Positions 7,407 to 38,115 of a stretch of 45,193 bases of DNA are shown here, one piece after another; position 1 is the first letter of the stretch; each line of letters opens with the position of its first letter. The notes beneath the pieces are model-generated. The model saw nothing but the letters and a program-made list of their open reading frames with translations. It had not been told where the DNA came from and searched no databases. The translations under genes were made by a program, and so were the position numbers. The stretch comes from a virus: IMG/VR virus record IMGVR_UViG_3300010373_001374, positions 1 to 45,193 of that record; one strand, given 5' to 3'.

Positions 7407-7607
7407 ATGACCAAAAAGATACTTGTAAATCTGCCGCAACCAATGCTTGAGCGAGCGAATTGGATCGCCGCCCAGCAGAATCGAACACGCAGCGACCTTG
7501 TGCGCGAAGCCTTACGCCTGATCGAGAAGAAGTACAGAGAAGAGAACCCCGGCACAGAGATCGGCACCTTGCCCGAGCCAGTGCGCCCGTGTGAAATGGT
7601 GGTCTAA
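7407..7607 (+). CDS. Ribbon-helix-helix (CopG-type) DNA-binding protein
   Basis: A 66-aa protein of classic ribbon-helix-helix form: a short N-terminal strand 'KKILVNLPQPMLERANWIA' followed by helix B 'TRSDLVREALRLIEKKYREE' with the typical R-S-D-L-V-R-E-A-L pattern. Such proteins dimerise and bind palindromic operators. AGGAG lies about 8 nt before the ATG. It probably regulates part of this early operon; its operator is not identified. Confidence 0.82.
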   Translation: MTKKILVNLPQPMLERANWIAAQQNRTRSDLVREALRLIEKKYREENPGTEIGTLPEPVRPCEMVV

Positions 7608-8000: not shown

Positions 8001-8237
8001 ATGCCCGCGCCACGTCCCGAGCCGAGAATCAAGACAACGATCACCATTGATGAACGGCTATTTAAGCGCCTGATGAACTACCCAGGACCCGGAACGTTGA
8101 GCGATCGCATAGAGACTCTGTGCCAATATGCTTTACAGATGGGTGCCTGGATGACACCAGATGAAGCGCGAGAGATAGCCGAGACGCGAGCCATGGAAAT
8201 GTTCCGCATGCTACCTCCCAAACGCAAGAAACGATGA
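8001..8237 (+). CDS. Ribbon-helix-helix-like regulator
   Basis: A 78-aa protein with 'RIKTTITIDERLFKRLMNYPG' (strand and start of helix A) and a following helix 'TLSDRIETLCQYALQMG', consistent with a ribbon-helix-helix dimer, plus a basic tail 'MLPPKRKKR'. It has one of the strongest ribosome sites of the region (AGAGGTGAT) and its own short leader with a palindrome at 7965. It overlaps the helicase gene by ATGA. Confidence 0.62.
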   Translation: MPAPRPEPRIKTTITIDERLFKRLMNYPGPGTLSDRIETLCQYALQMGAWMTPDEAREIAETRAMEMFRMLPPKRKKR

Positions 8238-11405: not shown

Positions 11406-11729
11406 CTACTGTCCAATCATGGACAACAGTTTTGCAGTCTTCACGCGATCGGCTGGCGACAGCTTCTTTAGCTGCTCGATCCAAGCGGGATCTAAATCGG
11501 TCTCGTCATGCAACCCAACCAGCCAATTAGCATCCACAGCGTAGGCGTCACACACTTGTGCAATAAACTCGCCGCTGGGCGGGTCTGCGCTGCCTGACTC
11601 GATAATTGATATGTAGCTCTGGCTACACTCAAGGATGCGCGCCGCCTGAGTCTGCCGAAGGCCGGCAGCAATTCGAGCATCTTTCATCCGTTTGCCAAAA
11701 TCATATTTCCACTTAGTGTTAGTTTTCAT
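11406..11729 (-). CDS. XRE (Cro/CI-type) helix-turn-helix regulator
   Basis: A 107-aa protein with an N-terminal lambda-repressor-like fold: 'FGKRMKDARIAAGLRQTQAARILECSQSYISIIESGSADPPSGEFIAQVCDAYAVDANWLV' shows the Q-x-x-x-A turn, recognition helix 'SQSYISIIESG' and the 'W-L' end of helix 5. The last 35 residues ('LDPAWIEQLKKLSPADRVKTAKLLSMIG') are helical. It is probably the repressor/early-gene regulator of this phage, but with no integrase there is no sign of a standard lysogeny module. Its operators could be the 22-bp sites at 13682, 14434 and 17619. Confidence 0.85.
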   Translation of the reverse strand: MKTNTKWKYDFGKRMKDARIAAGLRQTQAARILECSQSYISIIESGSADPPSGEFIAQVCDAYAVDANWLVGLHDETDLDPAWIEQLKKLSPADRVKTAKLLSMIGQ

Positions 11730-12738: not shown

Positions 12739-12966
12739 TTCATCGCCCTCCAATCGGTGCGAACATCCTACGAACTTCGTATCACAACATCAATTCCACC
12801 GACCTATACGAGCACCAATAGCACGTGAGGATATACCAACCCTTGACTCAATTCGCGTTGTCTGCTAATTACGCGCGTATAACTACACCTGCGTAATACG
12901 ACACGTAACAGTTAGTACGCGCACCTGTATTACGCGCCTGTACTAATCTCTAATTAATTCGTAACT

Positions 12967-13022
12967 CTCCCTTTTACGGATGTATGTTCCTTCGGAACAT
13001 ACATGCATCCGGCAAAAGGGAG
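12967..13022. repeat. Long near-perfect hairpin
   Basis: Outer arms CTCCCTTTT and AAAAGGGAG (9 bp), a small internal loop, GG/CC, then an 11-bp inner stem ATGTATGTTCC / GGAACATACAT closed by a 3-nt TTC loop, with a 4-nt GCAT bulge on the right arm. No T-run follows on either strand, so a simple terminator is unlikely. Confidence 0.85.
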
Positions 13023-13056
13023 TAACAATCGTAATTGGCCTGCGGCGCTTTAAGTA

Positions 13057-13139: not shown

Positions 13140-13383
13140 TTTCAATCCTAAACATAACCTACACCAACGTTTATCAGGAACGCTATTAGCGCTAGGTCTC
13201 TGACTCATGGTTAAGAGTTCTCCATCTGTCTGGAGTAATTCGAGTACCGTAATGTCAATACCGTCTTAAAACGCCTGTAATCACGCTCAAAGCTAACGGT
13301 CGTATCAGCGCTTATTACCAATGCCATAAACTCTATTCAGATACGAAACACCATCGTACCGAAACTAAATGTGGACCGGGCGC

Positions 13384-13640
13384 CCGCCCGTCCGGGCTCA
13401 CCAGATGGGCGTTTCGGGCTCTTGACGTGATGAAGTAGGGATACCGCCCGCGGTGGCACTTTTGGGCATTCAAACCTAGCCCAAAGCCAGTGTTTATGCG
13501 GCTTTGAGCCATTAATGCATACTCTCAAGTTTAGATTTAAATGGCTGAAACGCCCACGGGATGAGGCTTCCCTACCTCGTTCGCTCAGAGGCCCGCCGGC
13601 ACCCCCCAGCCGGCTGGACACCCCTATGGGGCCCCCGGTC
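13384..13640. other. G+C-rich structured segment
   Basis: Contains TTTGGGC/GCCCAAA (7 bp, 13456-13482 area), AAAGCC/GGCTTT directly after it, GGGCGTTTC near 13409 matched by GAAACGCCC near 13546, GTAGGGA near 13434 matched by TCCCTAC near 13569, the palindrome CAGCCGGCTG and CCCC-TAT-GGGG. The two long-range pairs are interleaved rather than nested. Composition differs from the neighbouring coding sequence. I see no gene in it. Confidence 0.5.
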
Positions 13641-13675: not shown

Positions 13676-13704
13676 CTGACTTCGTATGCCATTCGTAATA
13701 CAAT
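13676..13704 (+). promoter_or_regulatory. Promoter with shared 22-bp palindromic operator (site 1)
   Basis: CTGACT (13676) and TACAAT (13699) are spaced 17 bp as a sigma70-like promoter. The spacer and -10 box coincide with a 22-bp element, 13682-13703, that begins TCGTATG-CCAT and ends CGTAATACAA and recurs at 14434 and 17619. Transcription would begin near 13710, which rules out an ATG at 13707 and supports the start at 13731. Confidence 0.68.
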
Positions 13705-13730
13705 AGATGCGTACTGACGAGGTTCTACCG

Positions 13731-13925
13731 ATGAAAAACGTATTGCTTTTCCAGGAACGCCTACTCGTGCGCAAGGCGCTCGAACGCTATTCGGTCCATC
13801 TGTGTGCATTGGCTACCGAGGCTTCGGGCGACAAGAGCGAGAGCCTGCTGGCGGACGCCCGCGAGTGTGATTGGCTGGAACAGCGTTTTAAGTACGCTGA
13901 ATCGATTGTCCTCACCGAAAGTTAG
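13731..13925 (+). CDS. Small hypothetical protein
   Basis: A 64-aa helical protein ('NVLLFQERLLVRKALERYSVHL', 'DARECDWLEQRFKYAESI') starting at ATG 13731, with CGAGG about 9 nt upstream and a promoter at 13676. An in-frame ATG at 13707 lies at or before the predicted transcription start. It stands alone between two non-coding stretches and is followed by hairpins. No family recognised. Confidence 0.62.
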   Translation: MKNVLLFQERLLVRKALERYSVHLCALATEASGDKSESLLADARECDWLEQRFKYAESIVLTES

Positions 13926-13963
13926 CGAGCCGGTCTACGAAATCGAATAGGGAACGGCACGAG

Positions 13964-13995
13964 CAAGAGCCAGCGTATCAATCCGCTGGCTCTTG
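13964..13995 (+). terminator. Terminator-like 12-bp hairpin (H1)
   Basis: CAAGAGCCAGCG and CGCTGGCTCTTG form a perfect 12-bp stem with an 8-nt loop, followed by TCTTT. It lies 38 nt after the stop of the 13731 gene. Confidence 0.7.
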
Positions 13996-14035
13996 TCTTT
14001 AGTCAAGTTTTGACGCCGAAAACTTGACTAAAGAC
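13995..14035. repeat. Perfect 17-bp hairpin (H2)
   Basis: GTCTTTAGTCAAGTTTT and AAAACTTGACTAAAGAC are perfect inverted arms around the 7-nt loop GACGCCG. It shares its first base with the previous hairpin. The rising arm ends in TTTT, the falling arm starts AAAA. Confidence 0.9.
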
Positions 14036-14056
14036 AATACATTGTAGATACAAGAA

Positions 14057-14080
14057 CACCGAGACTTGCAATTCTCGGTG
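14057..14080. repeat. 8-bp hairpin (H3)
   Basis: CACCGAGA and TCTCGGTG pair perfectly around the 8-nt loop CTTGCAAT. Just before it, 14035-14054 holds overlapping palindromes ACAAT-AC-ATTGT and TTGTA-GA-TACAA that resemble half-sites of the shared operator. Confidence 0.75.
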
Positions 14081-14113
14081 CATCGCGGCGACCACATCCG
14101 GCCGGTTTAATCG

Positions 14114-14187
14114 CCTCGCTATTTCTACTCTATTTCAAGCGAGGATAGCGGGGGCGTTTAGCGTCTAGCCCTGTTGACGGTAAACGC
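14114..14187. repeat. Two adjacent hairpins (H4, H5)
   Basis: H4 (14114-14144) pairs CCTCGCT with AGCGAGG over a 17-nt loop. H5 (14154-14187) pairs GCGTTTA with TAAACGC, then after a G/G mismatch CGTC with GACG, over a 10-nt loop. Confidence 0.65.
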
Positions 14188-14190
14188 ATC

Positions 14191-14238
14191 ATAACAAACG
14201 ACCCCGAGCCACACAATCCGCTCAGGGTCTTTTGTTAT
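14191..14238 (+). terminator. Strong terminator-like hairpin (H6)
   Basis: GACCC/GGGTC and GAGC/GCTC stack around a 10-nt loop and are followed by TTTTGTT; ATAACAAA/TTTGTTAT extends the stem further. On the + strand this is a good intrinsic terminator; as the last of six tandem hairpins it may instead bound a structured RNA. From 14239 to 14430 I see no gene or clear signal. Confidence 0.7.
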
Positions 14239-14427
14239 TCATCGCCCGCAAGTACGACCAAGCGCTCAGGGCAATTTATCTGCTAGCTAAACACGGCCCT
14301 GCGTCTGGTTCGAGAGGATTTCCATTGCCCAGCAGACAAAAACAGCATACCGCACCTTCCGGCTGATGCCATAAAATTCGGTATATCCTCCCGTGCCATA
14401 TATCCCTTGAATCGACGAGCCTCCGGT

Positions 14428-14456
14428 CGTACATTGTATGACGTTCGCAATACAGC
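14428..14456 (+). promoter_or_regulatory. Promoter with shared 22-bp palindromic operator (site 3)
   Basis: The element at 14434-14455 begins TTGTATG and ends GCAATACAG, aligning base for base with the sites at 13682 and 17619. TACAGC (14451) serves as a -10 and CGTACA (14428) as a weak -35, 17 bp apart. It lies right before the 14472 gene. Confidence 0.58.
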
Positions 14457-14471
14457 GCAATGGAGGCAACC

Positions 14472-14711
14472 TTGGATATCGCGATACAAAAGCTTGTGAC
14501 TTTCGCCACACTGTTGGCTAGTCGGGCAGGCGGTCAGATGGTGATCGAGTTTACGCCGGAAGAGCAAGCCGCATTTGACGGCGAGCAATTCGAAGCGGTC
14601 GTAGAGTTCGATACCGAGAAGCGCACGGCAACGCTCACGGTTAATCAGATCGTGCGTCAACGTGTTACCGCCGTTGAGTCCGCACCGGCAGATGGCGTCC
14701 CAGTAGTTTAA
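14472..14711 (+). CDS. Small hypothetical protein
   Basis: I prefer the TTG at 14472, because GGAGG lies 5 nt upstream; the in-frame ATG at 14460 overlaps that site and the promoter -10 region, so it would be at or before the transcription start. The 79-aa product has an N-terminal helix and an acidic beta-rich C-terminal half ('QMVIEFTPEEQAAFDGEQFEAVVEFDTEKRTATLTVNQI'). No family recognised. Coupled to the next gene by TAATG. Confidence 0.6.
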   Translation: MDIAIQKLVTFATLLASRAGGQMVIEFTPEEQAAFDGEQFEAVVEFDTEKRTATLTVNQIVRQRVTAVESAPADGVPVV

Positions 14712-14911
14712 TGCCACCACTCTGGATGTCTTTTCAAGTTCTCGTGTGGCGCGGCGGCAGAATCGTAAACGATAGGGTCTTTTACACAAGATCAGCAATA
14801 GCAAGTAAACATGCCGCCGCGCTCACCGAGCCGGCATGGACCGTATGTCGGGAGACCGGCAAAGTTATGGCACGCAACAAAGTAAAGGTGAAAATAGGAA
14901 ATGAATCTTAG
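14711..14911 (+). CDS. Small hypothetical protein
   Basis: A 66-aa protein starting in a TAATG overlap. It has a short Trp/Val-rich strand region ('SFQVLVWRGGRIVNDRVFYTRSAIASKHAAAL') and a basic tail ('MARNKVKVKIGNES'). It overlaps the Acb2-like gene by 11 nt. No family recognised. Confidence 0.55.
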   Translation: MPPLWMSFQVLVWRGGRIVNDRVFYTRSAIASKHAAALTEPAWTVCRETGKVMARNKVKVKIGNES

Positions 14912-15185
14912 TGAGCAATTCGCATACCGCAAGCCGACCGACGACGAAACAACCGTCATGAAATCGCTGTCGGACGCCGCCGGCGCACTGGCAAAAACCT
15001 GTGAGCTGGCAGTCACAAGCAGCGCAGAGCGCACCTTGGCACTGCGCAAGCTGCAAGAGTTCCGCATGTGGATCAATGCCGCCATCATATTTGGCGGACT
15101 GGTCAAAGTGGAAGTACCGGAACTCAACGCGATCACAGGCGAGCCTGGCACCCCGATAACGGGTGAGCCCATCGAGGTGAAGTAA
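14901..15185 (+). CDS. acb2: Acb2-like cyclic-nucleotide sponge (anti-CBASS) candidate
   Basis: A 94-aa helical protein. It follows the layout of the Acb2/Tad1 hook family: 'FAYRKPTDDE' near the N-terminus (aromatic and Pro), a long helix 'TVMKSLSDAAGALAKTCELAV', then 'SSAERTLALRKLQEFRMWINAAIIFGG', matching the hallmark S-x-E-R-x-L-A-L-x-x-L-x-x-x-x-M-W-x-N-A-A-I. Acb2 proteins are small phage oligomers that sequester CBASS cyclic oligonucleotide messengers and so block abortive infection. The C-terminal ~25 residues are an extra Thr/Glu/Pro tail. The accessory position supports an anti-defence role; the call rests on pattern matching. Confidence 0.7.
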   Translation: MNLSEQFAYRKPTDDETTVMKSLSDAAGALAKTCELAVTSSAERTLALRKLQEFRMWINAAIIFGGLVKVEVPELNAITGEPGTPITGEPIEVK

Positions 15186-15688
15186 TGACTAAAACCATCA
15201 ACGATCACTGCGGGCTCAAGATTGTCTCCGAAAGGAAGACAACCAACTTTAGCCCAGAGGCGATTGAGCACGGCTACGTGTGCGCCCATGAAGTGCTGGA
15301 TCGCTTTGGCGCTCAAAGGGTCGAACTTCTCGAGCCGCAGGTTGCAGACGAGCCCATTTTGGCCCGCCGCATAACTGACTTCATGTATGCAAACAACCTC
15401 TTTGTACCGAAGCTTCACCAGCTCCGTACAGAGAGCGAGTTCTACAAGGCGATTGAAAACGGTAGCAAGCGTTTCGAAATCCGCCAGAATGACCGCAACT
15501 TCAAACCGAATGATTACCTACGGCTCGACGAAATCGCGGTCGATCCCGATAACGGACGCGGCACTTACACCGGCCAATCACTGATCGCCAGGGTCGGCTA
15601 TGTCATGGCTGACGAGCGTTTCGTCAAGGCTGGGTACTGCGTAATGCAGCTCAAGGAAGTGTGGGCACTCCACTCTTTTGGAAACTAA
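15185..15688 (+). CDS. DUF3850 (ASCH/PUA-like) protein with N-terminal extension
   Basis: A 167-aa protein coupled to the Acb2-like gene by TAATG with GAGGTGA upstream. Residues about 75-165 match DUF3850: 'KLHQLRTESEFYKAIENGSKRFEIRQNDRNFKPNDYLRLDEI', then 'GTYTGQSLIARVGYVM', the H-x-L-K-x-x...F-E-I-R-x-N-D-R-x-F...G-D-x-L...Y-T-G order. This ASCH-like fold is thought to bind RNA or modified nucleotides. The first ~70 residues are a separate region I do not recognise. Two tRNA genes and an RNA ligase follow, so a role in RNA metabolism is plausible. Confidence 0.72.
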   Translation: MTKTINDHCGLKIVSERKTTNFSPEAIEHGYVCAHEVLDRFGAQRVELLEPQVADEPILARRITDFMYANNLFVPKLHQLRTESEFYKAIENGSKRFEIRQNDRNFKPNDYLRLDEIAVDPDNGRGTYTGQSLIARVGYVMADERFVKAGYCVMQLKEVWALHSFGN

Positions 15689-15695
15689 AGCAATT

Positions 15696-15767
15696 TGCGG
15701 GGCGCCAAGGCGGCCGCTCGGGCTCATAACCCAGAGTGTTAGTAGGGTTCGAATCCCTCCCCCGCTA
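15696..15767 (+). tRNA. tRNA-Met (CAT), atypical
   Basis: Acceptor GCGGGG/CCCCGC, T arm AGGG/CCCT with TTCGAAT loop, and anticodon loop CTCATAA between GGG and CCC give a Met tRNA. Position 1 (T) does not pair with 72 (T), and the GGG/CCC anticodon stem is the initiator hallmark. The D arm is short, the variable region is long (about 8 nt), C28 faces A42, and CCA is not encoded. Real but divergent, or partly degenerate. Confidence 0.72.
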
Positions 15768-15770
15768 TAT

Positions 15771-15846
15771 CCCCCTATCGTCTAGAGGCTAAGGACACCG
15801 CCCTTTCACGGCGGTAACGCCGGTTCGAATCCGGCTAGGGGAGCCA
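15771..15846 (+). tRNA. tRNA-Glu (TTC)
   Basis: A clear cloverleaf: D arm GTCT/GGAC, anticodon stem CCGCC/GGCGG with loop CTTTCAC (anticodon TTC), T arm GCCGG/CCGGC with TTCGAAT loop, discriminator G and encoded CCA. Positions 2-7 of the acceptor pair, but C1 faces A72. It lies 4 nt after tRNA-Met and 16 nt before the RNA ligase gene. Confidence 0.94.
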
Positions 15847-15862
15847 TTTTACAGAGGAAATT

Positions 15863-16963
15863 ATGTCAACTCTCAAAGTAGAAGTAGTGACCATCGACGA
15901 CGTGCAGAAGCACCCAAACGCCGACCGCCTAGACTGCCTCATCGTCAAAGGCTGGAATGTCGTAGCCGCCAAAGGACACGTACCAGGCGAGAAGGTGGCG
16001 TATGTTCCGATTGACTCAATTCTGCCACCACCCCTTGAGGCTCACCTTTTCCCGCCGGACAGCAAGGTCAAACTAAGCAAGTCGCGCGTACGCACCATCA
16101 AACTGCGCGGCGCGATCAGCCAGGGAATGATCATACCGCTCGACGACCTGATCAACTTCGATCCTGAGTTCAGCGAAGCGCGAGTAGGCGACGACCTTAC
16201 CGCCCGACTCGGTATTACAAAATACGAACCACCAGAGGACAGCGTACCGGACCACATGCGGCCGCATCACTCGCCCAAGCTCTCTAATCCATGGTTCCGC
16301 AAGTACACCGATATTGAGCACTTCAAGAACCATAACCGGCTATTTGAACCGGGCGAGCATGTCTACATAACCGAGAAGTTGCACGGCACCAGCGCCCGTT
16401 ATGGCATGTTGCCAACGGCGCCGCGCAAGTGGTGGCAAAAGCTTCTGAAGTTCTTGCATCTGCTCCCTGACCATGAGTTCTGTATCGGCAGCCGCAACGT
16501 GCATCTGCAAGCGCAAGGTAACAAGTGCTTCTATGACAGCAATGTTTACGCGAAGATGGCCAAGTTCCACCGCCTAGCCGACGTGCTGCAGCCGGGTGAA
16601 ATACTCTTCGGTGAAATTGTCGGAGACGGGATCCAGAAGGGCTACACCTACGGGTGCCGGCAGGGTGAGCATGACTTCTACGCCTACGACGTAATGATTA
16701 ACGGCGAGTACCTCGACGCCCCCGACTTCGTGAAGTGGTGCGATCTGCGACACATCCCGCGCGTACCGGTCTATTACTGGGGAGTCTTTGACGACGCGCT
16801 AAAAGGACTGGCTAAGGGTGACAGCGTGATCGGCGGCCAAAAAGTACGCGAAGGCATCGTAATCAAGCCAAGCATTGAGCGGAACACGCACATGGGCCGC
16901 AAGGTGCTGAAGCTGATCAACGAAGACTACGAACTCGCCAAAGATAACTCGGATTTCCACTGA
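15863..16963 (+). CDS. RNA ligase, DraRnl (Rnl5)-like
   Basis: A 366-aa ATP-dependent RNA ligase of the Deinococcus DRB0094-type family. Residues about 1-135 are the N-terminal OB-like domain ('VEVVTIDDVQKHPNADRLDCL', 'GEKVAYVPIDSILP'). The nucleotidyl-transferase core has motif I 'TEKLHGTSAR' (catalytic Lys about 172; the K-x-H-G form of this family), motif IIIa/III 'ILFGEIVGDGIQKG', 'HDFYAYDVMI', motif IV 'REGIVIKP' and motif V 'GRKVLKLIN'. Members seal nicks with 3'-OH RNA ends in duplexes. AGAGGA precedes the ATG. Directly after two tRNA genes, so repair of cleaved tRNA is a natural suggestion. Confidence 0.88.
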   Translation: MSTLKVEVVTIDDVQKHPNADRLDCLIVKGWNVVAAKGHVPGEKVAYVPIDSILPPPLEAHLFPPDSKVKLSKSRVRTIKLRGAISQGMIIPLDDLINFDPEFSEARVGDDLTARLGITKYEPPEDSVPDHMRPHHSPKLSNPWFRKYTDIEHFKNHNRLFEPGEHVYITEKLHGTSARYGMLPTAPRKWWQKLLKFLHLLPDHEFCIGSRNVHLQAQGNKCFYDSNVYAKMAKFHRLADVLQPGEILFGEIVGDGIQKGYTYGCRQGEHDFYAYDVMINGEYLDAPDFVKWCDLRHIPRVPVYYWGVFDDALKGLAKGDSVIGGQKVREGIVIKPSIERNTHMGRKVLKLINEDYELAKDNSDFH

Positions 16964-17139
16964 TGCTTGATTGGAAACAGGTAGCAGCAAAGACGGGCCA
17001 CCGGCATATTTTTATGGATAAGTACGGCCCGCTCTACTCGGATCACGTTGAATGGGCGTGCCTGGCAGCAGACGCAAAGAAAGTTACCGACGCCGCCGGC
17101 GAGTACGCAATCTGCAACACGGAGCAAGAAGTATGTTAG
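16963..17139 (+). CDS. 58-aa hypothetical protein
   Basis: Starts at ATG 16963 overlapping the ligase stop (TGATG). The 58-aa sequence begins 'MLDWKQVAAKTGHRHIF' and ends 'AAGEYAICNTEQEVC'; it contains 'KYGPLYSDHVEWACLAADAKK'-type small-domain composition with several aromatic residues. No family recognised. It overlaps the next gene by 7 nt. Confidence 0.55.
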   Translation: MLDWKQVAAKTGHRHIFMDKYGPLYSDHVEWACLAADAKKVTDAAGEYAICNTEQEVC

Positions 17140-17345
17140 AGACTGACAGGGTAAGACTGGACGTGGTTCTAAGCTCGATCCGCCTGACGATGCAGCAGGC
17201 GGTACACGATCTGTTTGAACAAAGATCGGTTGAGTTTCAAGCGATGATTGACCAGGCAATCTCAGAGTACGACTTATATCTCAGGGAGAAAACCCAATGC
17301 GTGAACTCTGGTTTAAATGCACGAAAAAAGACGGGCAAGTCGTAG
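17133..17345 (+). CDS. 70-aa hypothetical helical protein
   Basis: ATG 17133 has GGAG about 8 nt upstream and overlaps the previous gene by 7 nt. The protein is helical ('DVVLSSIRLTMQQAVHDLFEQRSVEFQAMIDQAI') with a basic tail. The frame continues upstream to 17052 but that part lies inside the previous gene. It overlaps the next gene by 49 nt; both have good ribosome sites. Confidence 0.55.
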   Translation: MLETDRVRLDVVLSSIRLTMQQAVHDLFEQRSVEFQAMIDQAISEYDLYLREKTQCVNSGLNARKKTGKS

Positions 17346-17464
17346 AGGTTGTGCTTCAAGGCCGGCGCCGGAACCTGGAGCCGAGGGATTACATTCGCCT
17401 TACTCGCGAAGAGATCCAATGGTTGCACGACACCACGAAAAAGATCCTGGAGCACCGCGACTAA
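17297..17464 (+). CDS. 55-aa hypothetical protein
   Basis: ATG 17297 with GGGAG 8 nt upstream. The product starts 'MRELWFKCTKKDGQVVEVVL' and ends in a helix 'TREEIQWLHDTTKKILEHRD'. No family recognised. Its TAA overlaps the next ATG (TAATG). Confidence 0.58.
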   Translation: MRELWFKCTKKDGQVVEVVLQGRRRNLEPRDYIRLTREEIQWLHDTTKKILEHRD

Positions 17465-17568
17465 TGAACGACCCCGGGGGCGCCGACGTTATTTTGATCG
17501 GCACGATCATCACCGTCGTCTTTTGGCTTGGTGTTGGCATCCTCTGGATATGGTGCTCTGACCGCTAG
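17464..17568 (+). CDS. 34-aa single-span membrane peptide
   Basis: Starts in a TAATG overlap. After a short polar start ('MNDPGGAD') residues about 9-31 are one strongly hydrophobic segment ('VILIGTIITVVFWLGVGILW'), ending with 'CSDR'. A tiny inner-membrane protein; possible roles include superinfection exclusion or lysis control, but nothing in the sequence decides this. Confidence 0.55.
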   Translation: MNDPGGADVILIGTIITVVFWLGVGILWIWCSDR

Positions 17569-17612
17569 GATTAAACGGACCTCAAAAAGTATTGACGCCC
17601 AACAGTAGACCC

Positions 17613-17641
17613 TTTACCTTGTATTCCATACGTAATACAAC
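17613..17641 (+). promoter_or_regulatory. Promoter with shared 22-bp palindromic operator (site 2)
   Basis: The element at 17619-17640 is TTGTATT, 8 nt, AATACAA, a perfect 7-bp inverted repeat, and aligns with the sites at 13682 and 14434. TACAAC (17636) is a -10 with TTTACC (17613) as -35, 17 bp apart. A TTGACG at 17592 is another possible -35 for an overlapping start. Confidence 0.7.
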
Positions 17642-17661: not shown

Positions 17662-17955
17662 GTGACCACATACGGCGAAATCATCAGACAGATTCCCGAG
17701 CCGGGAGATCTGACAGAAAGAGCGGACGAAACGATTAAAGAATCTGCCGCCACGGTCTTAGAATCGCTCGTTGACCACCTGGACCGCCGAGGTTGCGCCC
17801 GCGCGATCATGCCGGCCGTCGTAACGGATGAAGTGATTAGCCTCGTGCTCGATCCGCTCCGCAAGAGAAAGTGGAACGTCAACATCAAGGACATTGAAAA
17901 CGGCGCGCGCCTGTTGACCATTGACGCCCGAAAACCAGCGAGTAAGCGCTCATGA
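17662..17955 (+). CDS. Hypothetical protein under shared-operator promoter
   Basis: A 97-aa GTG-start protein with CAGGAG about 8 nt upstream and the palindromic promoter directly before it. Predicted helical N-terminal two thirds ('DLTERADETIKESAATVLESLVDHL') and a beta-like end 'WNVNIKDIENGARLLTI'. No family recognised. Its TGA overlaps the next ATG. Confidence 0.6.
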   Translation: MTTYGEIIRQIPEPGDLTERADETIKESAATVLESLVDHLDRRGCARAIMPAVVTDEVISLVLDPLRKRKWNVNIKDIENGARLLTIDARKPASKRS

Positions 17956-19006: not shown

Positions 19007-19218
19007 TGGCGAAGACAGCAAGACCCAGCCCGCAAGTGCAGGCAACCGACTACTACCCGCCGGAAGACGCCCGCACCTTGATGAACGCGGAAGCGATCAA
19101 GGGCGATAAGAAACGCCACGGCGCCGCGATCGCACATGCCCAAAAGCAAGCCGCCCAGATCCAAAAGATCGTGCCGCAAAAACCAGCCGGCAGAAGCAAG
19201 GGCAAAGGCGGCCGCTAA
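19006..19218 (+). CDS. Small basic hypothetical protein
   Basis: A 70-aa Lys/Ala/Gln-rich protein ('AIKGDKKRHGAAIAHAQKQAAQIQKIVPQKPAGRSKG') coupled on both sides by TAATG. No family recognised; it travels with the preceding basic protein. Confidence 0.6.
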   Translation: MAKTARPSPQVQATDYYPPEDARTLMNAEAIKGDKKRHGAAIAHAQKQAAQIQKIVPQKPAGRSKGKGGR

Positions 19219-19430
19219 TGCTGATCAAACAGCTAGCCAGGTGCGGCAACAGCCTAGGCGTGCTCGTGCCCAAAGCGGTGCGCGAGCTGCTCGGATGGGC
19301 GGACGATACCAAACTCGAGTACCACCCGGAGGGCGATACCCTCACCTTGAAGCCGGCGAAAGAACGGCAGGAAGAAGCGCTCGATCTCCTATTCCCAGGA
19401 AACAATGGAAACACAGAGCCCGCCGCCTGA
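19218..19430 (+). CDS. AbrB/MazE-like swapped-hairpin DNA-binding protein
   Basis: A 70-aa protein with the AbrB/SpoVT/MazE signature at the N-terminus: 'MLIKQLARCGNSLGVLVPKAVRELLGW' (the G-N-S-x-G-V-x-x-P-K pattern) followed by 'DDTKLEYHPEGDTLTLKPA'. Such domains form swapped-hairpin dimers that bind DNA. No toxin gene lies next to it, so it is better seen as a regulator of the late region than an antitoxin. The tail is a short helix. Confidence 0.75.
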   Translation: MLIKQLARCGNSLGVLVPKAVRELLGWADDTKLEYHPEGDTLTLKPAKERQEEALDLLFPGNNGNTEPAA

Positions 19431-21753: not shown

Positions 21754-22699
21754 CAACTTTTTCAAGACAGCGATTTACTCAGGCTACCGCCTGCGCTTCC
21801 TCGAACCACGGCAGCGCGCATACGCATGGGAAGAACTGAAAAAGAATGTGACACCATACGCGGGAGTCATAGCGGGGATACATGAGCCATGGGCCCAGGA
21901 CGATTACGTCAGAGCGATCCCACCGCTGGATCTCCTGCTGCTATCGCTGCAAGGCGGTGAGTTCATCGTCTGTATATACGATGATCCCGAGGCTAAACTC
22001 TTGCCGCGAAACACGCTCGTGGGCATGGCATGGCTTGACGATATATGGGCCGAGCGAAGCGCGCACCTTCACGCTTGGAGCAATCCGGCGTGCCGCCAAG
22101 ACTTCCGCCGAAGCAAGATCGCGGATCGGTTTGCGCGCGAGATCGTCGAGTATGCCTTCAAACCATTTGCCCCGATAAAAGACGGCGGCGGCCTCGGGCT
22201 CAAAAAATTAAAGTCAAACGTTGCCATGCCCAACCGGCGAGCCTACCGCGCATTGCATGCGCTCGGCTTCGTCGATGTAGGGATCTCGCCGCTGGATGGC
22301 TTGTACGACTCTGTGCCTACCGATACGCTGAACTTAGAATTACTCAACCCTGATTATTTCGGCTTGGCCGAAGCAGAGGTAATACAAGCTAATGCCATTC
22401 GGCGGCGGGGGATCAGCCCCGAAACCCCCAACTTACTCACCACCGGCGCCCTTCGTGAATCCGGGCCCGTTCCAGGGTCCGCCGGATCCCAGCACGACGG
22501 TGCCGAACGTGCTCAGCCCCACTCAAGTTATGAGGCAAGGAGCATCGGTAGAGAGCCAACTACCGGCTTGGCTGCAAATCAATCAGAACCCCATGAACCC
22601 TCAGGGGATGCAGCAGTACGAGAACAACTTCTATCAAACGCAGGTGCAGCCGCAGTTAGCGCAGGCACAAGCCGACCTCTACGCAAACGGGCAAAATAG
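21746..22699 (+). CDS. GNAT-like protein with long C-terminal overlap
   Basis: From ATG 21746 (AGGAAG about 9 nt upstream) a 317-aa protein. The part to about residue 215 fits a phage GNAT-like acyltransferase found among virion genes: 'LVGMAWLDDIWAERSAHLHAWS', 'AREIVEYAFKPFA', 'GLKKLKSNVAMPNRRAYRALHALGFVDVG', the last being the A-x-R-A-x-R-x-L-x-x-x-G-F element of the fold. The last ~100 residues run 308 nt over the next gene in the other frame and are low-complexity. An earlier in-frame start (21632) would overlap the previous gene. Confidence 0.6.
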   Translation: MDDNFFKTAIYSGYRLRFLEPRQRAYAWEELKKNVTPYAGVIAGIHEPWAQDDYVRAIPPLDLLLLSLQGGEFIVCIYDDPEAKLLPRNTLVGMAWLDDIWAERSAHLHAWSNPACRQDFRRSKIADRFAREIVEYAFKPFAPIKDGGGLGLKKLKSNVAMPNRRAYRALHALGFVDVGISPLDGLYDSVPTDTLNLELLNPDYFGLAEAEVIQANAIRRRGISPETPNLLTTGALRESGPVPGSAGSQHDGAERAQPHSSYEARSIGREPTTGLAANQSEPHEPSGDAAVREQLLSNAGAAAVSAGTSRPLRKRAK

Positions 22700-24503: not shown

Positions 24504-27500
24504 ATTGCAAGTGCCACCGCCGCCGCCAAACATGCCAGCTTATGGCTCGGCAAGCGCCGCGCCCCAGGATGAATTTGACATGCTGTCCGCTCAGGATCAG
24601 CAGCAGGCAGCCCAGCAGGCGCAGCAACCGCCCGACGAGTTCAGCACACTGGCGGCAACCGATCGGCAGGCGCAGCCGCAGCAGCCGGCACCACTCCCGG
24701 TGCTCAGCACCAACGTGCTGGCAACACCGCAGCAGCAGCCAGCCCCGACACCAGCAGCTCAACCGGCACAAAAACCGGCAGCGAAACCGGCAGGGCAGCC
24801 ACGCACGATAAGCGCGCCACAGGCGAAGAAGGCAGCATCAGCACCGCCGCATGTCCCGACACCATTGGAGCAAGTTGGCGCAAACATCGCCCACCTAGGA
24901 CAGCAGGCTTATGCCGGTGCGCACCAAGTACCGATCCTCGGTGATGCCATCAGACTTGGCGAAGAATACGTACACAACCCGGCGCAAGCTGCAGCGGCAA
25001 CGGCGGCGAACATTCCAGCGGGTATCATCGGGCTGCCGCAAGACGTTGTGAATCTCAGCAACCAATTGACCCGGCAACAAGCCGCCGGACAAGTTGCCGA
25101 CATGGGCCCGGCTGATCTTACGTCGCCGGCACGGAAAACAATTGACTACGCCACTCAGGTGGCAAACGTTCTACTGCACCGCAAACAACTCGAGCCGGTA
25201 CAGGTGAAGGAAGCATATCAGGCACCATTCCAACCTGTTCTTGAAGCAAGCCCGGCAGCCGCCGGCGCCGGTGACTTGATTGGCAATCTCCTTGGCGGCA
25301 AAGGTATGCACTTGCCCGGCCCGCCGCAAATCAAGGCACTGGAAAACAATCCGATCGTACAAGGTTTGATCCACGGCGCAATAAGCGGCGAAGGTTACGG
25401 CGCTCTTGGCTCACTCGCCAATCAAGCCGAGGGCAGGCAGCACGAACAGGCAGACGGCAAAGACATACGCGGACTGAACTTGAAGCAAGCGGTGAAAGAA
25501 GGCTCGGCATCAATCGCCCCCGGTATATTGCTTGGTGCCGCCGGCGGTGCTTTCGCCAGGAAACCCGCACCGAAACTGGCACCGGGAACGATCCCGCCCG
25601 AACTGCTCGAATTTAAGAAACCCGGACAGGGAGCACCGACGCCGACCACGCAAGCGCCGGCAGCGCAGCCAGGGAAAGCGCGCGGATCATTTAGCTTTGC
25701 CCCTGGCATGAAACAGCAGCTTGAGGCGCGAGACGCCCAGGAAGCGACAGCCAACCCTTACGGCACCGTCAAGAAGATCGACGACTGGAAAAACACACTC
25801 AACGATCAGCTTGCCAATGCGCAATCCGCTGACGACGTACTGCAAGCGAAGAACGACGCCGCCGCGTGGATCAGCAAGAACGGCGCGGACAAGAGCGTCA
25901 AGGACGTGCTGAAAGAGCACCTCGACAAAACTGCGACCCAAGCAGACCTCAAGATCAAAGCCGACGCACAGAAAGCGAAGATCGAAGCAGCCCAGGCGAA
26001 GCAAGCGGCCACGCCACCGGAACCGGCGCCGGCTCCAGTGGCGCCCCCGCCGAAGCCGCCCGAGCAACCCGCGCCTCAAATGACGCCCGAGCAGATCGCG
26101 GAGCACCAGCGCCAAGACTTCATCCGGCAAAACTTCCCCAACCACAATGAAGACCTGAGCAGCCATGATTTCAGCACCTTCAAAGGCACCCGTGAAGAAC
26201 AATACAGGGTGAATCATGCCGAGCCTTTCAGCCCCCACCATATATATGATGAGGACATTGATCCGCAACTCGACATACTCAGCCAGACGCGCGAGCACCT
26301 CAACAAAGCCTACGAAAACGCCGACCGCAACACCCGCACGCGATTGACCGGCATTATCAAAATTCTCGACGGGCAAGAGAAAGCGATCGTACACGAGAAA
26401 GCGCGTCGCGCGTACCTGACCGCCCAGGGCGTTGAGCCTGACTGGGTAAAATCCGAACCTGTCGAAGGCGCCGACACGTCCGCCGCCCCTGCCGAAAATC
26501 CGTCGGAAAATCAACACATCGACTTTAAGCAAGTGCCGGACGATGAACTCGTCAAAAGGATGATCGATCCGGCAGCGCACGGACTGACAGACGATCAGCA
26601 CATGGCGGCCATTGCCGAATACGAAGCGCGCCACCCGGAACCGGCGCCGGAAGAGTCGCAAAATAATGGACAAAACCCCGGACAAAACGCACCGAGTCAA
26701 GAGCCCGAAACGCCGCCCCCGGCAGCGAAAGAACCCGGACAAAATAACGGACAAAATGAAGTAGCAAAATCTTACAAGGTCGATAAACAAGGGCCTTGGT
26801 ATCACGTCACCGATCAAGATGGAAACGTCCTAAGTAAGACGAAGGATCGCAAGCAAGCCGAGCGCCGCGTCGAATCGCTCAACAGTGGAGCAAAGCACGG
26901 ACAAGGCAAGCGCACAGACAAGAGCCCGCAGCCGGACGACTCCACCAGCTACCAGCGCGCGGCAATAGATTACGGCAATAAATTCGATGCCAGCAACCTA
27001 CCGCCGGAAGTATCCGAGCCCTTGCAACGACTCGTAGAACAGCGCCACCGTTTCGACCAGGCGCGCAACAAAGTTTTAGGGATCGCGCAAGTTGCCGGCA
27101 AAGCGAAAGGCTTGGATCTCAAACTCAAAGGCGTACGGAAATTTGATCCGGAAGTCGAAAAAGCAGTAGCCGCCGCGGCTAAAAATCCTGAAGAGTCCGG
27201 CTTCAGTATTGAAATGAACTCGGGGAAGAAGCCGGCGCCAGAAGCTTATAAACCGGCAAAAGGCGAGAACGTCTTAGGTGCTCTCAACAATGCCATTGGT
27301 GAAATGAAGTCGGCCGAGGCTGACTACAACACCGCCCGCGATACCTTCAAAGATCAATATCTTCCGCGCCGTGGTGAACTGCCGCCCTCGATCAACGTCA
27401 ACCACGAAGGCAATACATTTAACGTTAGGCTGACCAACAAGGAAAGCCGAGCAGCCACCACCAACACGCCAGGCGAGCAAGCGCTCAGCGACGACGTGAA

Positions 27501-30248: not shown

Positions 30249-31935
30249 GCTCGACGAGAACCGCCAAGCACGCGCCCGTTTAAAAATGCTCTGGATGACC
30301 CGGCCGGATTTACGGCCGGCGATCCGTGCGCGCTGCACCGGCGATCCCAACGATCTGCAATCGCTCAAGGATGCTTTTAAATTCTGGGCGAATCACTTTT
30401 GCTTCACCCACAACGAGCACAAGCCACCGCGCGAGCGCGTGCAACCGCTGTTGCTTTGGGAGCTGCAAGAGGAAATCTCAGACGTAATCATCGAGAACGT
30501 TTTTAAAGCGTCCGAGAATGAAAACTATGAGTGGAACGCCTATGGCGACAAAGCCCGCATGATGGCGTGGACGTTCCTAAATCTGCTGTTGATTCAATGG
30601 CTCTGGCAGTTTCATGGGATCTCTACGGTCATCACGTCGAAAACATTGGAAGACGTTGACAGCCAAAGCGACATGAACACGCCCTTTCAGAAATTGCGTT
30701 TTCAGATCGAATTGCAATACAAGCAAGCACCGTGGCTATTTCCCGAATCATTCGACATTGGCAACAACGAGCAGTACAAGACCGGGCTGATCGCCTGCAG
30801 CAATGGCGGATCCCAGATCGCCGGACTGTCACCCAAGGGCAAAGCCATGAGACAGGCCCGCGCCCTGATCTGGTTTGGCGATGAGTTCCCGCACACTGAC
30901 ACAGATATTGAATTGTGGGACGCCGCTTGTGGAACCGTCAAAGTACGGATCGTAGGCGGAACGCCGAACGTACAGCGCGGCCGTAACTGCAAAGCCTACA
31001 AGCTTCGGTACAACAAAGAAGGCGAGCAATGCCACATATTTGAAATGCCTTGGTGGCGCCACCCAGAGCGCGCAGTCGGCTTGACGAAAAAGCCGGATGG
31101 CACGTACACGTCACCGTGGTGGGAGCAGCAATGCGCGACCAAGAGCAAGCAAGTGCTTGCCGCCGAGTTCCTCATGGACTGGAACGTCGCCATGGGAGCC
31201 ACCGCCCTTTACGCTTTCCGCGAGGTGTCTTGTGTATTTGGACTCAAGCCCGATCCATTCGGCGGCCCGATCTTCCGTTCGTGGGATCCCGGCAAAAGCT
31301 ACGGTGTTTGCTGGGCGCAGCGTGACCGCTGGGGCAAGCTCCGGTTATTGCGCGAGCTGATACTCACCGAAGAGGACGTAAGCGAGCAAGGCAAGACGCT
31401 ACTTGCTGCAATCGCAGAGCGGGCAATCGGCATAACTGATCGGTACTTCCCAGACTTCGAAATCCTCGACGTGGGCGACCCTTACGCCAGCCGGACGCAA
31501 ACGTCATTCCAGGAAAAAACCGAATACGAAATGCTCTACACGAATCACAAGATCCGGGTGCAGAGCGCATATATGTACCAGATTCCATCAAAGGAACGCC
31601 GTAAAAAGCGCATCGAGATATTAAACGATCTGATGGGCAAAGACGTGACCGACGACGGCGGCAGGATGACGCCCGGTTTCCTGATCGACCCGCGCACTTG
31701 CCCGATCACTTATGAAGCGATCAAGCAAGAGTACCGCTGGAAGATGGACAAGGAGACGGGCGAGCGCACGGACGAGATCGTCAAGGCGCACCCGTTCACT
31801 GAGGCAATTGACACGATAGGTATGATAGCCGTAAAGCTATTTGATTCCAAACGGAATACAACCGGCGAGAGCGGCAGAACCCCCAGACCTAAGCGAAGGC
31901 AGTCTACAGGCTGGAGACGCACAGGAAGGATGTAG
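30223..31935 (+). CDS. terL: Terminase large subunit
   Basis: A 570-aa packaging motor. The ATPase half has a deviant Walker A, 'YGDKARMMAWTF' near 105-117, Walker B 'ALIWFGDEF' near 215-223 (catalytic Glu after Asp), and a coupling 'GGTPN' near 245. The RNase H-like nuclease half has acidic residues at 'RSWDPGKSYGV' (about 354), 'ILDVGDPY' (about 413) and 'EAIDTIGM' (about 527), consistent with three metal-binding Asp. It cuts and pumps DNA into the prohead through the portal encoded next. Confidence 0.85.
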   Translation: MTATALLSRLDENRQARARLKMLWMTRPDLRPAIRARCTGDPNDLQSLKDAFKFWANHFCFTHNEHKPPRERVQPLLLWELQEEISDVIIENVFKASENENYEWNAYGDKARMMAWTFLNLLLIQWLWQFHGISTVITSKTLEDVDSQSDMNTPFQKLRFQIELQYKQAPWLFPESFDIGNNEQYKTGLIACSNGGSQIAGLSPKGKAMRQARALIWFGDEFPHTDTDIELWDAACGTVKVRIVGGTPNVQRGRNCKAYKLRYNKEGEQCHIFEMPWWRHPERAVGLTKKPDGTYTSPWWEQQCATKSKQVLAAEFLMDWNVAMGATALYAFREVSCVFGLKPDPFGGPIFRSWDPGKSYGVCWAQRDRWGKLRLLRELILTEEDVSEQGKTLLAAIAERAIGITDRYFPDFEILDVGDPYASRTQTSFQEKTEYEMLYTNHKIRVQSAYMYQIPSKERRKKRIEILNDLMGKDVTDDGGRMTPGFLIDPRTCPITYEAIKQEYRWKMDKETGERTDEIVKAHPFTEAIDTIGMIAVKLFDSKRNTTGESGRTPRPKRRQSTGWRRTGRM

Positions 31936-31942
31936 CCACAGC

Positions 31943-33961
31943 ATGGCAAAAGCAGAATACCAACAGGCTTTCCTAGAGCCGTTCACGTCCGAGAAGATGC
32001 AGAAGCTTGCAGTACAGATATGGAACTTCGTTCTTTACTGCCAGGACTCACGCCGGCCGCGCGAAAAAACAATCTTTGAATGTGACGAGGCTTACCTCTG
32101 CCACCGTTACGTCCCAGACGTAGGCGCCATGCAACTGATCGAAGATGGGGAATTTGGCGAGTCTGATGTCTTCGACAACATGAACTACATGAGCATCCGG
32201 CAAACACTCGCCTTGATGCCCCGCAACCAACCATGGCTTACGGTATCAAGCCGCGAGGGAGAAGCCGACCTCATCATCCAGGCGATCCAAGATCACCAGA
32301 TCTATATGCACAAGAAGGCGCGCACGCGTCGGAATTGGCAGCGCCACCGGAAGCAAAAGAACATACGCGGTCGCAGTGGCATTTACTGGGAGTGGCGCGA
32401 AGAGAAAGTATGGCGCAGGATCGACGACGTAGCCGACAACGCCAAGCAACTTAATGCTTGGCTGAAGCGTGCCGGCATCAAGAAGGCGGACGCCGGCAAG
32501 CTGACCAAGGGCAGATACCCACACATCATCAACGCCGGACCCTCAATCTATCCCATTGATTGGTATGACTTGTGGGTTGATCCATCGGCTGACCTAGTGA
32601 ACCACCGCCGACCGGCAAAGATCGTCCGCCGTTTCCGCGTCCTTGAAGATCTAATGTCAGAGATGAAGGACGACGTACCGGAACCGAAGTACGACAAGGA
32701 AGTCCTGAAGCAGATCACCCCGCTGACCTTTGAGCAAATTTACTCGAACTGGGATTATGCCGGCGGCCGCACCAGCTCACAGCGGATATTTGGCACCGTG
32801 CCTTCCCGCATGACCAGCGGCATTAAATTCGTGCCGGTCTATATTTGCTACTTCCCGCACCTGGAATTTGATTACAACGGCACTAAAGAACACTACTGGG
32901 ATACATATTTTCATATTGCCATTGATGGCACGGGAAATAAGCCTTTCCTGATTTACGCCGAAGAGAACCCCAGCGACCTGGGACACAGCCACATTATTGT
33001 GGATGACTGCGTAGACTGGGTGACACCATGGGCAAGTGGTGGCATTGGACTGGTGGAAAAGCAACTCAGCCGCTACCACCAAAAGAACCTACTCAAGTTG
33101 CTCATGGTGACGGCAGCCGCACATAGTATCTTCCCGCCGGTCAACGTGCTTGCTAACGCATTGCGCGAGGATGAAGAGTACGGTTTCGGACCCGGCGAAA
33201 TTAACGTTATACAAGAGAACCCGCTCGGGCTTGCTGCAATCGCACCCATGCAGGTGCCGGAACGCGGCGCCGCCCTCGGTGAGCAAATCCTCCGATTCTA
33301 CGGCGAGGACATGCGGGCAAGCTCGGGGCTCGACGGATTGGCGATAGATAACCCAGCCCGCAGCATGAGCAAGCCGAAGACGGCCACCGAAGTGAACCGC
33401 GACCAGAGCACCGGCAGCCTGCTGCTAGACAACGAAGCGGAGAACGACGCCGAGGTCTTATCGGAACTCGTGATGTCTATCTTTGAGGAAAGCCAAAAGC
33501 GACTGCTACCGAACGCGGAAGGGATGCTCGATTATGAGCGCTACCTCGGAGACAAAGTAATCCAAGGGAACCTCAGTTTAGGCGACTTTAGAGCCAAGCG
33601 ATCGATCCAGGTGCTTGGTGTACAGGGTGCCGAGAACAGGGCCCAGGAGCTACAGAACCTGTTGCAAGGGCTGGACATTTCCAGCCGACTGATACCGGCC
33701 ATGCCAATGGCGATCCCGTTTGCACAAACGGCACTTGTACAGACGTGGCGGAAACTCAATATCCCGATGCCGGATCAACTGGAAAACATGCCCTTGCAGA
33801 TGCCGCAAATGATGCCACCCGGTATGCCGCCACAGATCGGTATGCAAGGTGGCGCGCCACCGCCCGCACCACCGGGAGCGCCGGACCAAGGCAACGTTAT
33901 AGATCTCAGTCAATTTATGGGGGCAATGAATGGACCTGGTAACGCCAGCGCAGCTAGCTGA
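31943..33961 (+). CDS. Portal protein
   Basis: A 672-aa protein. I chose ATG 31943 just after the terminase stop; the frame extends back to 31841 inside terminase but that segment looks non-coding. It has the size and features of a podovirus portal: 'YPIDWYDLWVDPSADL', 'VEKQLSRYHQKNLLKLLM', a crown-proximal 'RASSGLDGLAIDNPARSMSK' and then 'PKTATEVNRDQSTGSLLLDNEAEN', the K-T-A-T-E-V stretch typical of portal helices. The C-terminus is Pro/Met-rich ('QMPQMMPPGMPPQIGMQGG'). The dodecamer would be the DNA gate and head-tail attachment. Confidence 0.8.
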   Translation: MAKAEYQQAFLEPFTSEKMQKLAVQIWNFVLYCQDSRRPREKTIFECDEAYLCHRYVPDVGAMQLIEDGEFGESDVFDNMNYMSIRQTLALMPRNQPWLTVSSREGEADLIIQAIQDHQIYMHKKARTRRNWQRHRKQKNIRGRSGIYWEWREEKVWRRIDDVADNAKQLNAWLKRAGIKKADAGKLTKGRYPHIINAGPSIYPIDWYDLWVDPSADLVNHRRPAKIVRRFRVLEDLMSEMKDDVPEPKYDKEVLKQITPLTFEQIYSNWDYAGGRTSSQRIFGTVPSRMTSGIKFVPVYICYFPHLEFDYNGTKEHYWDTYFHIAIDGTGNKPFLIYAEENPSDLGHSHIIVDDCVDWVTPWASGGIGLVEKQLSRYHQKNLLKLLMVTAAAHSIFPPVNVLANALREDEEYGFGPGEINVIQENPLGLAAIAPMQVPERGAALGEQILRFYGEDMRASSGLDGLAIDNPARSMSKPKTATEVNRDQSTGSLLLDNEAENDAEVLSELVMSIFEESQKRLLPNAEGMLDYERYLGDKVIQGNLSLGDFRAKRSIQVLGVQGAENRAQELQNLLQGLDISSRLIPAMPMAIPFAQTALVQTWRKLNIPMPDQLENMPLQMPQMMPPGMPPQIGMQGGAPPPAPPGAPDQGNVIDLSQFMGAMNGPGNASAAS

Positions 33962-34280
33962 CAAGCAGAAATCCGCAACGGACGACGATCTCGCGCGGTA
34001 CCAAGAGCTTGCCGATCAACTCAAGGTGCTTGTACAACTCCCAGGCTATAAGTACGCTAAGAGGATGAGTATGTCGTATGTAATACAACCATACGCATGC
34101 CACCCGCCAACCAATGAACAAGAGCGCATCCGTTGGGAAACGTACAACACAGTTAGATGGGGCTTTGAGCGGCTCTGGCACATGATCGAGAGTATCGCCG
34201 CCGGAACGTTTGAGCTACCGAAGGAACAGCAAGTAAATGCCGATAGTAGAGGGAAACCAGGCGCAATCAGCCTCATTTGA
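33930..34280 (+). CDS. Hypothetical protein after portal
   Basis: A 116-aa protein overlapping the portal by 32 nt and the next gene by 44 nt. Helical start ('LADKQKSATDDDLARYQELADQL') and a Trp-containing middle ('RWETYNTVRWGFERLWHMIESI'). No family recognised. A copy of the operator-like sequence lies inside it at 34067. Confidence 0.6.
   Translation: MDLVTPAQLADKQKSATDDDLARYQELADQLKVLVQLPGYKYAKRMSMSYVIQPYACHPPTNEQERIRWETYNTVRWGFERLWHMIESIAAGTFELPKEQQVNADSRGKPGAISLI
34067..34089 (+). promoter_or_regulatory. Possible fourth copy of the shared operator element
   Basis: 34067-34088 reads GAGTATG, 7 nt, then TGTAATACAA and agrees with the 17619 site at about 16 of 22 positions, including the whole GTAATACAA end. 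It lies inside a coding gene, 150 bp before the scaffold candidate, with TACAAC as a -10 but no good -35. Confidence 0.3.
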
Positions 34281-37299: not shown

Positions 37300-38115
37300 G
37301 TGACAGCTAACAATAGCTGGTTTAACGTGACTAATGAGGTGCTCCGGTTATCGTTGCTACCAACGATACCGGACACCAACACGTTTGATACTGACTCGAA
37401 CCTGCAAGAGTTTCAGTCAGCGGCCAAATGGTACGTACGCCTGTGTCACCACCTTATGACCTTGCGCATGGTGAAACATTTCACCACCAGGCGGTTTGAC
37501 CTGCCTATTGACACTTCAACTGATACCTACGCCCTGGACCTTGGGATAAATGGCTCTTGCATCAAGCCGAGATCGTTTTTCAACCTCACCCCGGGCGGAA
37601 CGCTGAACCAGGAATTAAATTACCTCGACTATGACGAGTTCCTGAGAAAGTACCCCGATCCATCCATCCTGGTGAACACACCAGGAGCGCCAATGCAATG
37701 GATCTTGCTCCCGCTTGAAAGATCGGAAGACCCGGTAAACGGGACAAATACGCCACCGACAACGGCACCGATCCAAAGGGTGCGGATATTCCCGTATCCC
37801 GACGCGCAATACAACTTGCAGTACCGCGCACAGATCCTCCCTTATCCGCTCACGCAGAGCACCGACGTGATCCTCTGGCCGGCAGAGTATGAGCACTGCC
37901 TCTGGATATGGTCTTGGGGCCAGGTAGAAAGAGCCCTCGGTGAAGGTAAGGAAGGCACGCTCGAACAGCTTGCCCGCCAAGCCGTTCAGGATGTCCATTT
38001 GATCGCCGGCGTGCCGGACGATGCACGGCGAGCCGTAAGAACTATGCGGCCTCTCAGCGGCGCCATGTGGCCGCCAGGCAAATACACGGGATGGGTTTCT
38101 AGTCCGCCCGGTTAA
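37300..38115 (+). CDS. Head-tail adaptor / tail tubular A-like protein
   Basis: A 271-aa GTG-start protein 3 nt after the previous gene. It has a helical N-terminus ('DSNLQEFQSAAKWYVRLCHHL'), a beta part 'RVRIFPYPDAQYNLQYRAQILPYPL' and a closing 'VILWPAEYEHCLWIWSWGQVERALGEGKEG', the pattern P-x-P-x-x-x-Y-x-x-x-Y-R followed by a W-rich helix that I know from podovirus head-tail connectors. Sits between capsid and the big tail protein, as expected for an adaptor. Confidence 0.65.
   Translation: MTANNSWFNVTNEVLRLSLLPTIPDTNTFDTDSNLQEFQSAAKWYVRLCHHLMTLRMVKHFTTRRFDLPIDTSTDTYALDLGINGSCIKPRSFFNLTPGGTLNQELNYLDYDEFLRKYPDPSILVNTPGAPMQWILLPLERSEDPVNGTNTPPTTAPIQRVRIFPYPDAQYNLQYRAQILPYPLTQSTDVILWPAEYEHCLWIWSWGQVERALGEGKEGTLEQLARQAVQDVHLIAGVPDDARRAVRTMRPLSGAMWPPGKYTGWVSSPPG

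Follow-up and report, generated by a model that had tools for sequence, protein, structure and literature searches.

A palindromic element at three accessory-block promoters of a viral genome, recurring within virion genes and in a relative, as the putative operator of one phage repressor

The accessory block and its repeated element

We analysed the whole 45,193-nucleotide stretch of the viral record IMGVR_UViG_3300010373_001374 (hereafter the window), in which three copies of a palindromic element stand right before genes of an accessory block and two further copies lie within genes. The block and the sites comprise the following features:

13676–13704, + strand: sigma-70-like promoter over operator 1, CTGACT (13676–13681), 17-bp spacer, TACAAT (13699–13704)
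13682–13703, + strand: candidate operator 1, TCGTATGCCATTCGTAATACAA; exact core GTATKNC-N4-GNMATAC, also found by the matrix
13731–13925, + strand: first gene after operator 1, 64 aa; ribosome-binding site GAGG; no family match
14434–14455, + strand: candidate operator 2, TTGTATGACGTTCGCAATACAG; exact core, also found by the matrix
14472–14711, + strand: first gene after operator 2; TTG start, ribosome-binding site GGAGG; no family match
14901–15185, + strand: Acb2/Tad1 hairpin-domain protein, downstream of operator 2 (PF24729, E 2.7e-9, 37.5 bits against a cut-off of 27)
15185–15688, + strand: DUF3850 (ASCH-like) protein (PF12961, 7.5e-21)
15771–15846, + strand: tRNA-Glu (ttc)
15863–16963, + strand: RNA ligase, DRB0094 type (PF09414, 1.6e-21; TIGR02306, 158.4 bits against a cut-off of 151.15)
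17619–17640, + strand: candidate operator 3, TTGTATTCCATACGTAATACAA; perfect 7-bp arms, exact core, also found by the matrix
17662–17955, + strand: first gene after operator 3; GTG start, ribosome-binding site AGGAG; no family match
31840–31861, + strand: fifth site, TTTGATTCCAAACGGAATACAA; end of the terminase ORF and start of the portal ORF; matrix score 22.6
34067–34088, + strand: fourth exact site, GAGTATGTCGTATGTAATACAA; inside ORF 33930–34280

The three promoter sites align base for base without gaps, exactly where the initial annotation had placed them, and the 17619 site is, as it had also claimed, a perfect inverted repeat over 7 bp (arms TTGTATT and AATACAA). The core, GTATKNC-N4-GNMATAC, consists of two 7-bp half-sites at an 11-bp pitch, and each half-site (GTAWTAC-like) is nearly palindromic on its own. 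The operon after site 3 is compact, with gene gaps of -26 to +12 nt as far as the gene at 19218–19430. Judging from the known roles of Acb2 and Tad1, the block after site 2 resembles an anti-defence region, and the domain match suggests that 14901–15185 is probably an anti-defence gene.

Several structures surround the block. The non-coding stretch 13380–13610, shortly ahead of site 1, folds much better than shuffled sequences on both strands (z about -3.6) and has no Rfam match; within it, 13408–13426 forms a 19-nt perfect inverted match with 26696–26714, inside an ORF of 1764 aa, and is possibly antisense to it. A long hairpin (CTCCCTTTT...AAAAGGGAG, with the inner stem GTATGTTCC-TTCG-GGAACATAC) occupies 12978–13030, and half-sites without a partner (GTAATAC and GTATTAC) occur at 12893 and 12927. 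Between the first and second operators, a perfect 19-bp stem with a 7-nt loop (13993–14037) is probably a terminator. Farther away, the coding region at 2055–2243 contains 24-bp tandem repeats.

Enrichment at a single spacing in the window and in a relative

The element is a real feature of the window. Allowing up to 3 mismatches to the consensus, 3 matches were found in the window and 0 in 100 shuffles, and GTAATACAA has 4 matches against 0.09 expected. The exact core at spacing 4 occurs four times (13684, 14436, 17621 and 34069), whereas 200 other spacings yield 0.025 matches on average (Poisson P 1.6e-8). This P value is partly circular, because these very sites also served to refine the half-site definition. 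A symmetrised matrix trained on the three promoter sites of the window scored five places at 21.1 or more, with the next background match at 11.3 and a median best score of 13.4 in Markov-2 simulated genomes; the two places that it adds, 31840 and 34067, are both in-gene. The initial annotation had also listed copies of a 9-mer at 22379 and 34080: the latter is part of the full site at 34067–34088, whereas 22379 has the right arm only, lacks the left arm and is absent from the top matrix matches, and was rejected as a site. Another candidate, at 37794, was a false lead from a pattern with the wrong gap (N7).

Scans with the helicase identified one relative, IMGVR_UViG_3300020057_000415 (hereafter G001), in which most genes are collinear with the window and the helicase is 51% identical. 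Searches of viral and genome collections with the portal, primase and capsid proteins returned no relative besides G001, and annotated phages gave remote virion matches only. The relative tests the matrix independently, whereas the half-site form in its refined version drew on G001 too. It contains 4 exact matches at spacing 4, against 0.04 expected from other spacings, and with up to 1 mismatch 11 matches at spacing 4 against 0 to 3 at other spacings; with the window-trained matrix, twelve places reach at least 13, where the best score under the null has a median of 12.8. The motif search across this genome and relatives that had been suggested earlier gained the fifth window site (31840–31861) and showed spacing-4 enrichment in the relative, whereas three distant helicase relatives (L003–L005) lack enrichment of the element. 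Upstream of the first gene of its accessory operon, within a long non-coding region, G001 carries five boxes at 11-bp pitch; relatedness between this first gene and the one after window site 2 could not be demonstrated.

Promoter register

The sites share a register in which a -35-like hexamer touches the left arm, followed by a 17-bp spacer and a -10-like TACNNN within the right arm. Promoters were called by match to the sigma-70 consensus only. The initial annotation had placed all three sites over plausible promoters; this holds fairly well for site 1 (CTGACT/TACAAT, 9/12 consensus positions) and passably for site 3 (TTTACC/TACAAC, 8/12), but the match at site 2 is weak (CGTACA/TACAGC, 6/12). 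In the relative, TTGACT-17-TACTAT encloses one site with the register seen at window site 1, and no promoter in that register was found at most of its sites. An inverted repeat within a core promoter is found at window site 1 and at this site of the relative, and less clearly at sites 2 and 3.

Three copies just before genes, in one orientation and with short leaders, might also mark a class of phage promoter served by a polymerase or sigma factor specific to the phage. We regard this as most improbable, because the element is a dyad, is arrayed in the relative and also occurs in-gene, and the protein scans recognised neither an RNA polymerase nor a sigma gene.

Copies within virion genes

Both genomes have one site at the end of the terminase and another in the small gene that follows the portal. 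The G001 counterpart of the 31840 site lies at the matching place (G001 23281), and that of the 34067 site (G001 21118) lies in the homologous gene, 8 bp away in the alignment and in another reading phase. Since the small-gene sites are read in different phases and encode different peptides (SMSYVIQ and SVFLSEY), they are not explained by protein constraint. In synonymous randomisation (1000 trials each, both places, both genomes), the window 33930 gene scored 21.1 where the null maximum was 19.6, and its G001 homolog scored 16.1, level with its null maximum of 16.1; at the terminase end the scores were 22.6 against 21.9 in the window and 15.4 against 15.4 in G001. The peptide SKxNT is common to both genomes at the terminase end, so the likeness of these sites may be in part protein-driven. 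Operator copies maintained inside virion genes against protein drift would call for a function beyond promoter blocking, and those in the terminase/portal region may be distal sites or roadblocks to elongation.

At the level of sequence, spacing-specific enrichment in two genomes, a shared promoter register and the retention of sites at the same in-gene places support the earlier proposal of one regulon with promoter-overlapping operators. The five window sites are most likely binding sites of one phage repressor.

Candidate repressors and rival binders

Four predicted DNA-binding proteins of the window were considered:

7407–7607, + strand: ribbon-helix-helix (RHH) protein of a phage-wide family; homolog in the relative
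8001–8237, + strand: protein read as RHH-like; conserved in the relative; no Pfam match
11406–11729, - strand: XRE/HTH_31 protein; no homolog in the relative
19218–19430, + strand: MazE/AbrB-like orphan protein, predicted DNA-binding (PF04014, 9.9e-7); seventh gene after operator 3

By position, the MazE/AbrB-like protein is the best candidate, and we tentatively favour it. Its gene is the 7th in the site-3 operon and its counterpart the 6th in the operon of the G001 array, and it is the only one among the candidates that sits in a site-headed operon in both genomes, as do regulators in Aca (PMC9410906) and antitoxin operons (PMC4803016). It is 46% identical to the protein of the relative (L002 7833–8027), and the two PF04014 matches, one in each genome (29.1 and 30.6 bits), exceed the cut-off of 24.7. 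No MazE relatives were found in genome contigs or annotated phages, and the AlphaFold model is poor and unusable (pLDDT 49.5). Aligned with the E. coli MazE sequence, the MazE-like proteins presumably lack the Trp and Arg of the E. coli DNA contact, so the specificity of E. coli MazE would not be transferable. These contacts are described in PMC4803016. In the relative, the MazE-like gene neighbours a patatin gene and a gene for a small protein.

The XRE protein at 11406, proposed in the initial annotation, is a highly improbable repressor: G001 keeps the element but lacks a homolog of this protein, its sole HTH_3 match being a different and weak one. A serine-recombinase-like protein of G001 (L006 7114–8013, - strand) adjoins a weak XRE protein by reading, which suggests that G001 is temperate or formerly temperate.

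The RHH proteins, also proposed earlier, might instead bind the same operators, each 7-bp box taking a dimer and the boxes recurring every 11 bp, in the manner of ParR or Omega. R1 ParR requires two 11-bp repeats (PMC9426499), and at several promoters Omega dimers of pSM19035 bind 7-bp heptads whichever way these point (PMC9499535); homologs of both RHH proteins are present in the relative. However, neither RHH gene lies near any site in either genome, and we consider this explanation possible but doubtful. For 7407 a further test was available: its family, of which the G001 type has the beta-strand KVLIALPPAML, occurs with an almost invariant strand in ten other phages, none of which has an element match with up to 1 mismatch in whole-record scans, some of the records being fragments. 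The window strand reads KKILVNLP against KKVLIALP in the family, so the test bears most directly on G001. The 7407 half of the earlier RHH proposal is accordingly disfavoured, and this protein is quite unlikely to be the repressor. The other half can stand, since 8001 is found in the relative too and shares its distribution, window and G001, with the MazE/AbrB-like protein (both were absent from 8 of 8 other records searched, with one subthreshold MazE match); on present comparison 8001 is an unlikely repressor. A phage protein that we did not recognise is likewise an unlikely repressor, and a host factor is very unlikely. The small RHH protein is nearly invariant (KVLIALPPAMLEQ, HRTRSDLIREALRRYL) across phages that are otherwise little related (L035–L044).

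The boxes themselves occur more widely. Triple GTAWTAC boxes at 11-bp pitch were found in 20 IMG/VR contigs (chance expectation below 1 by our own estimate, the number of bases in the collection not being given). One contig has four GTAWTAC arrays of the same pitch around parA (PF13614) and, by reading only, a small RHH-like partner (L018 892–2242), probably a partition locus, which also lends some weight to an RHH binder. The GTAWTAC box probably serves proteins that are unrelated, and the binder therefore cannot be named from box likeness alone. Such loci, together with arrays within Lin1244-type genes (L025, L032) and the five-box array in the long non-coding region of G001, raise the question of whether the sites are centromere- or origin-like (partition sites or iterons) rather than mainly operators. 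This appears rather improbable: the window has no array, its operators are single, and three of them stand right before genes in promoter register; the protein scans recognised no ParA, and phmmer with the L018 ParA found none in the window or the relative.

Discussion

We consider it reasonably probable that one autoregulated phage repressor uses the sites as its operators; binding, repression, timing and the identity of the repressor are what we infer. At the promoter copies, the palindrome would occupy the 17-bp spacer and its right arm would supply the -10-like hexamer, so that bound repressor would exclude host RNA polymerase. The near-palindromic half-sites and their 11-bp pitch fit a model in which one symmetric dimer would bind each half-site, with two dimers per operator on the same face of the helix. 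On phage entry the operators would be free and the accessory block (the Acb2/Tad1-like, DUF3850 and RNA ligase genes, the tRNA and small genes) would be transcribed, until repressor made from the end of the site-3 operon shut the block down.

This arrangement recalls Aca-controlled acr operons (PMC9410906), which likewise have an inverted repeat in an anti-defence core promoter and a small DNA-binding protein, here a candidate, in the operon. Unlike Aca, which is an HTH protein, the candidate is MazE/AbrB-like (PF04014) and outside the named Aca families, several operons and in-gene copies are involved, and no acr gene was recognised. The establishment regulon of Reg_p576 in pLS20-family clade II plasmids (PMC8708921) is similar in having paired heptamers at the promoters of several operons, also found here, a variable anti-defence block and one repressor, as we predict; its heptamers, however, are 2 bp apart, lie beside the promoter and bind an RHH repressor, whereas ours are 4 bp apart and inside the spacer. 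As in the operators and stoperators of cluster A mycobacteriophages (PMC9283540), copies of the promoter operator occur elsewhere in the genome (here 31840 and 34067), but stoperators are asymmetric, monomer-bound and number 26, whereas the 5 sites here are palindromic with palindromic half-sites, and the roadblock is putative.

Promoter palindromes recognised by an AbrB-fold protein are known from MazE/Kis, with two Kis dimers per palindrome (PMC4803016); here no toxin gene was recognised beside 19218 in a family search that extended to 19430. The E. coli mazEF operator contains TGTATCTACA, which in a by-eye comparison is similar but not the same. The RHH centromere arrays of ParR and Omega (PMC9426499, PMC9499535) also use short boxes at a pitch of about one helical turn or less that overlap promoters, but no partition ATPase was found here by phmmer in the window or the relative, and the window has single operators.

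As phage operators, the sites are of an ordinary kind; the conserved in-gene copies and the candidate repressor are unusual. More speculatively, and in our view rather unlikely, an orphan MazE/AbrB-like protein might be the master repressor of the anti-defence block, with the terminase/portal copies as roadblocks or loop partners, which, if true, would join early shut-off with late gene control. The operators provide a sequence-level handle on the on-off timing of accessory and anti-defence genes in a phage of an undescribed group, with a candidate repressor named, and the spacing rule can be used for marking the accessory operons of relatives. In G001, a strong intrinsic-terminator-like hairpin (L002 3340–3450, z -4.9) lies about 80 nt after an operator-bearing promoter with no gene in between, possibly marking a regulated small RNA.
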